The position numbers were made by a program, and so were the translations under genes. The notes beneath the pieces were generated by a model. It was not told where the DNA came from, searched no databases, and saw only the letters and a list, made by a program, of their open reading frames with translations. From positions 62,001-126,000 of the forward strand of contig CP059070.1 in NCBI GenBank assembly GCA_017798125.1: 64,000 nucleotides of DNA. Reading direction: 5' to 3'. Shown here piece by piece: positions 36,182 through 56,088 of the stretch; position 1 is the stretch's first letter; every line of letters begins with the position of its first letter. This DNA comes from Cryomorphaceae bacterium (GTDB lineage: Bacteria; Bacteroidota; Bacteroidia; Flavobacteriales; ECT2AJA-044).

Positions 36182-37162
36182 TTAAGAAATATATAATGCG
36201 CTCTTCACTGCTTTAACCACATCGTCCACCTGAGGAAGGAATTCTTCCACGAGTGTCGGGGCATAAGCCATAGGCGTGTCGAGCGTGTTGATTTTCTTGA
36301 CGGGAGCGTCAAGAAAGTCGAAAGCATATTTTTGAACCATGTAGGTCAATTCCGTAGAGATATTGGCTAGTGGCCAAGCCTCTTCGAGAACGATCATACG
36401 ATTGGTCTTTTTCACTGACTGAATAACTGTATCGTAGTCAATAGGACGAACTGAGCGCAAATCAATCACTTCGCACTCTATCCCTTCCTTAGCCAATTGC
36501 TCGGCTGCTGTAAAGGCGTGCTTAATGATCTTACCAAAAGAAACGATTGTCACGTGATTACCGGCTCGCTTGACTTCGGCTTTCCCAATTGGAATCAGGT
36601 ATTCACCTTCAGGTACCAAGCCTTTGTCTCCGTACATCTGCTCCGATTCCATCACCAAGACAGGATCATCATCGCGAATAGCACTCTTCAAAAGACCTTT
36701 AGCATCTTTTGGATCAGAAGGAACAACAACCTTCAAACCCGGGGTATTCGCATACCAGTTTTCGAAACTCTGGCTGTGGGTTGCTCCCAACTGCCCAGCA
36801 GATCCACTGGGCCCGCGAAATACGATTGGAATATTGAACTGACCACCAGACATCTGGTACATCTTCGCTGCGTTGCTGATGATCTGATCGATCCCAACAA
36901 GTGCAAAGTTGAAGGTCATGAATTCGATAATTGGTCGGAGTCCGTTCATGGCTGATCCTACACCGATACCGGCAAATCCAAGCTCCGCAATTGGGGTGTC
37001 GATCACACGCTTGGGCCCGAACTCATCGAGCATGCCCTTGGAAGCCTTGTAGGCCCCGTTGTATTCGGCAACTTCTTCACCCATGAGATAAACGCGCTCG
37101 TCGCGACGCATCTCTTCACTCATGGCTTCACAAACAGCTTCTCGGAATTGAATTTCCCTCAT
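36182..37162 (-). CDS. pdhB: Pyruvate dehydrogenase E1 component, beta subunit
   Basis: Beta half of the thiamine-dependent E1 enzyme in the pyruvate (or a branched 2-oxo acid) dehydrogenase complex. The 326-residue protein has YNGAYKASKGMLDEFGPKRVIDTPIAELGFAGIGVGSA, RGPSGSAGQLGATHSQ, and LEEAWPLANISTEL. The alpha subunit and E2 gene are not adjacent. A perfect -7 box lies 21 nt upstream of the start. Confidence 0.94.
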   Translation of the reverse strand: MREIQFREAVCEAMSEEMRRDERVYLMGEEVAEYNGAYKASKGMLDEFGPKRVIDTPIAELGFAGIGVGSAMNGLRPIIEFMTFNFALVGIDQIISNAAKMYQMSGGQFNIPIVFRGPSGSAGQLGATHSQSFENWYANTPGLKVVVPSDPKDAKGLLKSAIRDDDPVLVMESEQMYGDKGLVPEGEYLIPIGKAEVKRAGNHVTIVSFGKIIKHAFTAAEQLAKEGIECEVIDLRSVRPIDYDTVIQSVKKTNRMIVLEEAWPLANISTELTYMVQKYAFDFLDAPVKKINTLDTPMAYAPTLVEEFLPQVDDVVKAVKSALYIS

Positions 37163-53640: not shown

Positions 53641-54234
53641 ATGGATTTAAACTTCATTCTTTCAACGGCCATATTGATATTCTTTGTACTCGACCCCTTC
53701 GGGAACGTTCCTTTGGTATTGACCATCCTTAAAGACGTTCCGGCGGAGCGCAGGCGAAAGATTATCATCCGCGAAGTACTCATTGGGCTGGTAATCCTAT
53801 TGCTGTTCCTCTTCTTCGGGAACGAGTTCTTGAGTATTTTCCATTTGGAAACCGAAGCGGTACAGATTTCGGGAGGAGTGATTTTCTTCATCATTGGAAT
53901 GCGGATGATCTTCCCTGCGGATCCAAACCAATCGCTTTTTGCCGCTCAAGGCGAACCCTTCATTGTTCCGATCGCAATGCCCATGATAGCGGGACCATCA
54001 GCCTTAGCGACGCTGTTGGTATTGTCGAAAAATCATGCAGACGCGCCTGTTAGCGTCACTTTAGCCCTTCTTGCGGCCTGGGGAGCATCTTTTTTAATTC
54101 TCCTGGCAGCACCCTTCATGTATCGCTGGCTTCGCCGCCGAGGCCTTACTGCGCTTGAGCGTTTGATGGGAATGCTCCTGCTTTTCTTAAGCGTCCAGAT
54201 GTTCATTGACGGCATCCGCGGACTGCTTGTGTAA
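53641..54234 (+). CDS. MarC family membrane protein
   Basis: A 197-residue integral membrane protein with about six membrane segments and family motifs FFVLDPFGNVPLVLTIL, EAVQISGGVIFFIIGMRMIFP and PIAMPMIAGPSALATLLVLS. The family was once linked to antibiotic resistance, but its substrate is not known. It is encoded 31 nt after typA. A strong hairpin terminator lies at 54348-54394. Confidence 0.92.
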   Translation: MDLNFILSTAILIFFVLDPFGNVPLVLTILKDVPAERRRKIIIREVLIGLVILLLFLFFGNEFLSIFHLETEAVQISGGVIFFIIGMRMIFPADPNQSLFAAQGEPFIVPIAMPMIAGPSALATLLVLSKNHADAPVSVTLALLAAWGASFLILLAAPFMYRWLRRRGLTALERLMGMLLLFLSVQMFIDGIRGLLV

Positions 54235-54347
54235 CAATAGTATAATTTATCGCAACGAGACTTGTTCTCTTATATAGAATTTCTCCAGATCTTAGCTGTG
54301 AGGTTAGAGGTTTTCATGTTGCAGCGTCCCCAACTAACCTGGGGACA

Positions 54348-54394
54348 AGCGCCCACCCCGAGGGAGGACACATAAAGGGGTGGGCGCTCTTTTT
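54348..54394 (+). terminator. Strong intrinsic terminator with a 17-nt GGGAGGACA-containing loop
   Basis: Twelve-pair stem AGCGCCCACCCC/GGGGTGGGCGCT (54348-54359 with 54377-54388) followed by CTTTTTAT. The loop GAGGGAGGACACATAAA is unusually long and purine-rich for a simple terminator. Confidence 0.85.
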
Positions 54395-54532
54395 ATATCC
54401 CCTTGTTAATAAAATTGTTTAATCTTTTGTCCCTGAACCACTTAGGATTAGGAAAAAATTACGAGCTTGAGCATCAAGACACAATCCATGCGTCTTATTT
54501 GTCCTCCCGGACAGATGTTTAGGTTAATGAGG

Positions 54533-54561
54533 AAAAGTCCCGCGGTGCCGACGGGACTTTT
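54533..54561 (+). terminator. Intrinsic terminator 49 nt ahead of the helicase start
   Basis: Ten-pair stem AAAAGTCCCG/CGGGACTTTT (54533-54542 with 54552-54561), loop CGGTGCCGA, with the T-run inside the stem's 3' arm. Readthrough or a promoter downstream of it is needed for helicase expression. Confidence 0.75.
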
Positions 54562-54609
54562 CTGCTTTAATTTCACGACCTTTGTGGCTCATTTCTAACA
54601 CGTTCCCAT

Positions 54610-56088
54610 TTGACTTCATTTAAATCCCTTGGGCTTTCTAGCGAAATGCTAAAAGGCCTGGAAGATCTTGGCTTTCAACAGCCTTCGGAAATTCAAGCAC
54701 AAGCCATCCCCCTTCTTCTTGATGGAGACAACGACCTTATTGGCTTGGCACAGACGGGAACGGGAAAGACCGCTGCCTTTGGAATTCCCCTACTCGAGCG
54801 AGTAGACCCCGAAGAGCCTCGAACGCAAGCGCTTATTCTGGCTCCAACTCGTGAGCTCGGGCAACAGATTGCTGAACAGCTAGCCCTCTTCAGCAAATAC
54901 CAGGATCAGGTAAATGTATTGGCTGTATATGGCGGAGCAGCCATCATCAACCAAATCAAAGCCCTCAAAAAGCCACAACAAGTAATCATTGCGACTCCCG
55001 GTCGACTTATAGACCTGATCGAGCGAAAAGCGGTGGACTTGAGTGCACTAGGTATTTTGGTACTTGATGAAGCGGATGAAATGCTCAACATGGGCTTCAA
55101 AGACGAGCTCGATAAGATTTTGAGCTACACTCCGGTAGAAAAACTCACTTGGCTCTTTTCCGCGACTATGCCGGCTGAAATCCAAAAGCTCGTTCAAAAC
55201 TATATGAATGCGCCACTGGAAGTACGCGTCGCCACCAAGAACGAGGTCAACAAGAATATTGATCATCGCTTCGTCATCACACAAGGAGCCAAAAAATCAG
55301 AAGCACTCATGCGCTTCTTGGACCACGAAACAGCGCTTCGCGGGGTGGTTTTCTGCCGAACAAAGCGGGATACTCAAAACCTCGCTGAGTATTTGCTCAA
55401 AAGTGACTACAAGGCAGATGCTCTTCATGGTGATCTAAGTCAAGCACAGCGAGATCGCGTTATGAAGCGATTTAAGAACCATGAGCTTCAAGTGCTCATT
55501 GCCACGGATGTAGCTGCTCGCGGAATTGACGTGAATGACCTTACTCACGTCTTCCACATGGCATTGCCAGATGACCCAGCGTACTACACACACCGCAGCG
55601 GGCGTACTGCACGTGCTGGAAAAAAAGGAATCTCTCTTGTCTTCGCGACCGGGCGGGATCGGGGGCGACTGGAGCGTTTAGCTGATAAGTTGGACATCTC
55701 CTTCTCTCAAGCTGATGTCCCAACCCCTGAAGACATCAAGGCGGCCAAAATTGAGAAGTGGGTTCAACAAATTCTCGACACTCGTCCCAAAGGGAAAATT
55801 GACGGCCAACTTTTTTTCGAAGTCGCCAATACACTTGCTGGGCTCAGCAAGGAGGAGCTTTTGGCAAAGTTGCTTGTCCTTGAGCTAGAGCGAAGCAATT
55901 CCTCCGGTGAAGGAGACGATTTAAATCAACGCTTCTCGAGTGGAAAACCCAAAGGCGGCCGCTCCAGAGGCGGTGGCGGTGGCGGGTACCATAAGAAGGG
56001 ATCCTACCACAAAAGGAAAGGTGGTGGCAAAAAGAAAAAAGGCGGCTTTAAAGCCAAAGATCGCCACCACGGCCGAAGAGGGAGGTAA
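54610..56088 (+). CDS. DEAD-box RNA helicase
   Basis: ATP-dependent RNA helicase of 492 residues, probably for ribosome assembly or cold adaptation. All core motifs are present: Q-motif QPSEIQAQAIP, AQTGTGKTAAFGIP, APTRELGQQ, TPGRLIDLIE, DEADEM, SAT, and HRSGRTARAGKKG. The C-terminal tail is rich in Gly, Lys, Arg and His (about 440-492), a likely RNA-binding tail. It starts with TTG at 54610, which gives the expected MTSFKSLGLSSEML; no in-frame ATG exists before the Q-motif except Met13. Preceded by the terminator-rich leader. Confidence 0.94.
   Translation: MTSFKSLGLSSEMLKGLEDLGFQQPSEIQAQAIPLLLDGDNDLIGLAQTGTGKTAAFGIPLLERVDPEEPRTQALILAPTRELGQQIAEQLALFSKYQDQVNVLAVYGGAAIINQIKALKKPQQVIIATPGRLIDLIERKAVDLSALGILVLDEADEMLNMGFKDELDKILSYTPVEKLTWLFSATMPAEIQKLVQNYMNAPLEVRVATKNEVNKNIDHRFVITQGAKKSEALMRFLDHETALRGVVFCRTKRDTQNLAEYLLKSDYKADALHGDLSQAQRDRVMKRFKNHELQVLIATDVAARGIDVNDLTHVFHMALPDDPAYYTHRSGRTARAGKKGISLVFATGRDRGRLERLADKLDISFSQADVPTPEDIKAAKIEKWVQQILDTRPKGKIDGQLFFEVANTLAGLSKEELLAKLLVLELERSNSSGEGDDLNQRFSSGKPKGGRSRGGGGGGYHKKGSYHKRKGGGKKKKGGFKAKDRHHGRRGR

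Follow-up and report, generated by a model that had tools for sequence, protein, structure and literature searches.

The window analysed here is a 64-kb stretch of genome G000, which is a single contig of 2.84 Mb, and it was compared with G001, the one further genome in the collection that shares its genus and family. On the forward strand, marC (53641-54234) encodes a NAAT/MarC-family membrane protein (Pfam MarC, 3.2e-57; NCBIfam TIGR00427) whose copy in G001 is 88% identical. Behind it, on the same strand, lies a DEAD-box RNA helicase gene of the CshA/DbpA/RhlE-like kind (54610-56088, TTG start; Pfam DEAD and Helicase_C), with orthologues that are 84% identical in G001 and at most 75% identical elsewhere. 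Moving 3' from marC, the gap between the two genes holds a hairpin (H1), a terminator (T1), an AT-rich stretch, a folded region, and a second terminator (T2), after which the helicase follows. The gap is 77% identical between the window and G001, where it likewise lies behind marC. The neutral level of identity is low, with 38.6% at marC third codon positions, and the gap between typA and marC gave no alignment to G001 at all.

The marC protein resembles the YhgN-type proteins found in Proteobacteria, Campylobacterota, and Saprospiraceae more closely than it does the copies usual in Flavobacteriales; its best Flavobacteriales match outside the genus is 54% identical, and most others are ~ 30%. 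This pattern of similarity suggests horizontal transfer of marC. As a route to further gaps, marC yielded no additional one that could be aligned, its nearest relatives outside the genus being at most 65% identical and mostly from other classes or phyla.

Two structured elements in the gap

The gap contains two structured elements on the + strand that are kept in G001 and that we treat as candidate small RNAs (sRNAs): E1 (~ 54299-54395) and E2 (~ 54436-54563), both with predicted 5' ends. Their folding energies lie well below those of shuffled sequences (z -4.3 for E1 and -4.6 for E2). Intrinsic terminators stand at the 3' ends of both elements, T1 for E1 and T2 for E2, and both are also present in G001. 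The promoter-like boxes of the two elements are conserved yet non-canonical.

E1 is preceded by a putative -7 box, GATCTTAGC (54288-54296, +), which is identical in G001. Against a promoter matrix built from the promoters of helicase orthologues, this box scores 7.5 in G001 (top 0.06%) and 2.8 in the window (top 0.5%). Conservation between the two genomes climbs just 3' of it, and a transcript initiated there would begin right before the stretch AGGTTAGAGGTTTTCATGTTGCAGCG (54301-54326, +), which is identical at 26/26 positions in G001, is mostly unpaired, and could possibly serve as a seed. H1 follows at 54326-54346 (+). A first-pass annotation of this DNA had begun its pair of terminator hairpins at 54326; that position belongs to H1, an additional hairpin that precedes T1. 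About 50% of the H1 sequence has changed in G001 while the stem has been kept, with one compensatory pair (CG to UA). T1 itself (54348-54394, +) has a 12-bp stem formed by AGCGCCCACCCC (54348-54359) and GGGGTGGGCGCT (54377-54388), a 17-nt loop, and the sequence CTTTTT, giving a U5 tail; it probably also terminates marC. In G001, the T1 stem shows one compensatory pair, two pairs altered on one side, and one broken pair. Within its loop, GAGGGAGGACACATAAA (54360-54376, +), the segment GAGGGAGGACACA is invariant, with 13/13 positions identical.

Taken together, the H1 and T1 stems differ from G001 at 7/36 bases, and 17/18 pairs are kept (p = 0.023 under random placement of the changes). In all, 97% of the cells are paired, and sliding the partner strand lowers this to 34-56%. 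Covariation in E1 is weak with two genomes (112/500 in the shuffle control), and the retention of pairing is suggestive rather than proof.

Several candidate targets of the 26-nt stretch were considered. One search for its complements found no conserved long target and no excess over the control, and an exact search of viral contigs with the stretch gave no match. Anti-start-codon targeting by GGUUUUCAUGUUGC was discarded, as only one other near-match was seen per genome, at or below the level of the reversed control. Pairing with the marC start region was also set aside, as it did not go beyond shuffled sequences in the window (17%; 5% in G001).

Upstream of E2 lies an AT-rich, promoter-like stretch, TTG...TAATCTTTTG (54403-54429, +), which is non-canonical, ~ 89% identical in G001, and may serve as the promoter of E2. 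The body of E2 includes a local hairpin, TGTCC-TCCC-GGACA (54500-54513, +), whose stem is kept in G001 as TGTCC-TTTC-GGACG. The small hairpins of E2 are kept in G001, and an outer stem seen in the window is lost there. The element ends in T2 (54533-54563, +), a 10-bp stem of AAAAGTCCCG (54533-54542) and CGGGACTTTT (54552-54561) with a T tail, behind which G001 carries an insertion. A change in the T2 stem in G001 was considered as covariation and then dropped: two other copies of the inserted repeat in that genome carry nearly the same hairpin, and the change may have come from the repeat.

Covariance models of E1 and E2 were run on 292 and 60 Flavobacteriales genomes, and in these searches convincing matches were found in G000 and G001 alone, with true members scoring 126-166 bits. 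With filters off, no relative of either element was found at 14 other helicase orthologue loci, where the best scores were 16.5 and 13.9 bits. Weak model matches in two further genomes, G002 and G004 (26 and 23 bits), were located within coding genes or on the strand opposite to them, and we regarded them as chance. BLAST matches in many genomes fell mostly on the AT-rich sequence at 54403-54431 and were disregarded; one BLAST match on the E1 stretch (L024) had a model score of only 10 bits. In Rfam, nothing in the gap rose above a gathering cut-off, and neither E1 nor E2 matched any family. The gap gave no match to 6S-Flavo (RF01685) at E up to 10, and that family was also absent from the searches of G000 and G001. 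On this negative result, a 6S RNA identity for E1 and E2 was set aside.

The helicase promoter box and the hairpins

Bacteroidetes promoters carry a -7 box of the form TAnnTTTG (PMC6847099). The best match to the promoter matrix in the gap (top 0.06% of the window) is GACCTTTG (54577-54584, +), which lies behind T2 and 33 nt before the helicase start codon. In G000, in G001, and in most other helicase orthologues, which span several families, a box of this type is found 26-41 nt upstream of the start codon; examples from other genera and families are GACCTTTGCA and TACCTTTGCA. In the window, typA also has TACCTTTGCA at a similar distance from its start. Since the helicase box is 3' of T2 and is shared with the orthologues, both hairpins lie upstream of the likely helicase transcript. 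More generally, a TAnnTTTG box near a start codon tells whether hairpins are inside or outside the transcript, which offers a route to excluding leaders in Bacteroidetes.

The arrangement in G001 separates the elements from the helicase physically. There, the match to the window runs to 54543 on the marC-side contig and resumes at 54557 on the helicase-side contig, with multicopy sequence in between. Both flanks match the window, and on this basis we infer that the two contigs adjoin. E1 and E2 stay with marC and are cut off from the helicase by the insertion at T2. The two elements thus neither sit between the predicted helicase start site and the start codon nor travel with the helicase in relatives, having been found at none of the 14 other loci and being split off in G001. 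They adjoin the helicase and probably do not control it.

In another genome (G089, L199:1164-1382), a cold-shock-protein-like gene (FNETKGFGFI) was observed immediately 5' of the helicase orthologue; this is consistent with a link of the helicase to cold in some relatives.

Complementarity between the T1 loop and E2

The first-pass annotation had drawn attention to the 17-nt loop of T1 and its complementarity to a segment further downstream, and both the sequences and their coordinates proved correct. The loop segment GGGAGGACACATAA (54362-54375) forms 13/14 Watson-Crick pairs with TTATTTGTCCTCCC (54495-54508, +), a segment of E2 that we call site B. Complementarity of at least 13/14 at a spacing of 60-300 nt occurs nine times in the 64-kb window, at six distinct places, and therefore the bare match is not rare. 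When the loop was scanned against the window, the E2 site ranked second on the + strand at -20.3 kcal/mol, and 31641, 18741, and 18881 gave similar values; across the sequence examined, the loop finds an equally strong partner roughly every 20 kb. Compared to dinucleotide shuffles of E2, the duplex is stronger than expected in both genomes: its energy of -20.3 kcal/mol in the window and -19.0 kcal/mol in G001 was reached by 0.0005 (1 in 2,000) and 0.001 of the shuffles, respectively.

The best partner of the loop within E2 is nevertheless a different site in G001 (TTGTGTCTTCACC). Pairing with site B falls from -18.9 kcal/mol in the window to -11.7 in G001, while pairing with a neighbouring site A rises from -7.7 to -16.4. 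In the gap alignment, a check that the first-pass annotation had proposed, the loop is conserved, and site B is identical at 10/14 positions and does not covary. Two C-to-U changes in site B weaken pairs to G-U, and no compensatory change in the loop was found between the window and G001. Nor is the partner the single-stranded stretch it had been taken for. Most of site B is contained in the local hairpin of E2, where TGTCC (54500-54504) pairs with GGACA (54509-54513), and TT (54495-54496) belongs to another stem; opening the site would cost ~ 10-10.9 kcal/mol, versus 0.6-0.8 for the T1 loop. A Shine-Dalgarno-like cause of the match, suggested earlier as a cautious alternative, is unlikely, given that Bacteroidetes mRNAs naturally lack Shine-Dalgarno sequences (PMC6847099). 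The match as a real interaction is weakly supported. A real but loose interaction between the loop and E2 is possible, and a conserved 14-nt contact is not the pattern seen in the two genomes.

Candidate small RNAs and alternative explanations

With moderate confidence, we favour the explanation that the gap holds two tandem, genus-restricted candidate genes for intergenic sRNAs, with the helicase transcribed separately. E1 would start near 54299, after the conserved promoter-like box, and would consist, in order, of the invariant and mostly single-stranded AGGUUAGAGGUUUUCAUGUUGCAGCG, a hairpin of drifting sequence, and a terminator with the invariant, purine-rich loop GAGGGAGGACACA. E2 would be preceded by a promoter-like sequence of its own, fold along its body, end in T2, and act as a second, independent sRNA. 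We infer an sRNA function for both elements, in which the 5' stretch of E1, its terminator loop, or both would pair with target RNAs as in an ordinary base-pairing sRNA. The helicase would be transcribed from its own promoter behind T2, outside the control of the hairpins. The two genomes show conservation at the RNA level and no sign of protein coding, and narrowly distributed intergenic sRNAs that have a promoter and end in an intrinsic terminator have been documented as a class in Bacteroidetes (PMC7366714).

Rather unlikely, in our estimate, is that E1 is the 3' UTR of a typA-marC or marC transcript, perhaps cut into a 3'-UTR-derived sRNA, with E2 as the only free-standing RNA. No strong terminator lies between marC and T1, the E1 box scores low in the window (2.8), and UTR-derived sRNAs are known in Bacteroidetes (PMC7366714), yet the same box is identical in both genomes, reaches 7.5 in G001, and has conservation rising behind it. 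The simpler form of this explanation given earlier, in which the first hairpin merely ends marC, does not account for the conservation of the 26-nt stretch and of the loop in E1. The first-pass annotation had also put forward two antagonistic sRNAs. Two sRNAs agree with the conservation, structure, terminators, and promoter-like boxes, and the antagonism has weaker backing, with an invariant loop on one side and a partner that is 10/14 conserved and a site that moves on the other. That the E1 terminator loop pairs with E2 at sites A and B, one RNA titrating the other, seems unlikely to us. It would account for a duplex that beats shuffles in both genomes (p ~ 0.001) and for a loop that is both invariant and open, but the best site differs between the genomes, the loop does not compensate for changes in the partner, the core of the partner is explained by a conserved local hairpin that must be opened, and matches of equal strength recur elsewhere. 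Mutual pairing is thus neither conserved nor covarying across the two genomes. A version in which the pair is self-contained, with the large invariant T1 loop capturing E2 through a contact that slides between two neighbouring E2 sites, we hold to be quite improbable.

The other possibility raised in the first-pass annotation, a leader or attenuator in which both hairpins share one 5' UTR and long-range pairing controls T2 and the helicase, does not agree with the data and is very improbable. In its favour, the hairpins share the strand of the helicase and lie upstream of it, and the gap as a whole folds well. Against this, the conserved promoter box of the helicase lies behind T2, an insertion separates T2 from the helicase in G001, and no relative of E1 or E2 was found at the 14 other helicase loci. 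We give hardly any credence to a small leader peptide in E1, MLQRPQLTWGQAPTPREDT, running from an ATG at 54316 to a TAA inside the T1 loop, where a ribosome at the stop would open T1. This frame spans 19 codons, ends in the loop, and is uninterrupted in both the window and G001; the indel in H1 amounts to 3 nt. Nonetheless, the codon changes are not biased toward third positions (4 first, 2 second, and 3 third, by inspection), so short a frame could be open by chance, and the conserved residues coincide with conserved RNA positions. The AGAGG before the ATG lends no support in a phylum whose mRNAs are free of Shine-Dalgarno sequences (PMC6847099).

Among known systems, the proposed pair of sRNA genes resembles GibS and other high-confidence sRNA candidates of Bacteroides thetaiotaomicron (PMC7366714), which are also short intergenic RNAs with a promoter-like box, a Rho-independent terminator, a narrow range, and a conserved unpaired stretch. 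E1 and E2 differ from them in showing no sequence relation via Rfam and in lying in tandem. CJnc190 and CJnc180 of Campylobacter jejuni (PMC8687705) likewise come from a single locus and, as a pair of RNAs, have the potential to bind and antagonise one another; however, they are cis-encoded antisense partners, whereas E1 and E2 follow one another on the same strand and match over ~ 14 nt only. 6S-Flavo RNA, likewise small, structured, and from Flavobacteria, has about the same length but does not match. Leaders and attenuators of helicase mRNAs also have terminator-like hairpins upstream, but here the helicase box is downstream of the hairpins. If expressed, E1 and E2 would be two Flavobacteriales small RNAs that match no curated RNA family, and E1 would offer two invariant contact surfaces, its 5' stretch and its 17-nt terminator loop.

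The sequence inserted at T2 in G001 was observed more widely in that genome. The repeat, TATATTTATAGAGGATTAGAAAGAGGTCAT..., occurs at ~ 13 places in G001 (L003:1824-1883 and L178-L190; contigs C17, C4, C41, C40, C92, C1, C59, C24, C94, C86, C91, and C58) and is absent from G000. It stands nearly always directly after the GGGCTTT of differing intrinsic terminators, mostly at contig ends, and resembles a mobile element with insertion sites behind terminators. Such sites are known from group IIC introns, and group II introns start with GUGYG; the start of the repeat differs from this. At the flank of the insertion on the helicase side (end of L175, C16, ~ 36280-36353), GTATTAAATCGCA...TGCGATTTAATAC form a perfect 13-bp inverted repeat, and CTTTT is found on both sides of the insertion, resembling a target-site duplication. 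In one copy (L178, last 130 bases, - strand of C4), the repeat is followed by TGTAAC... and then by a frame with the start MSGKRRKFSADFKARVALAA; this frame is similar to an IS3-family OrfA and is possibly a second insertion within the repeat.
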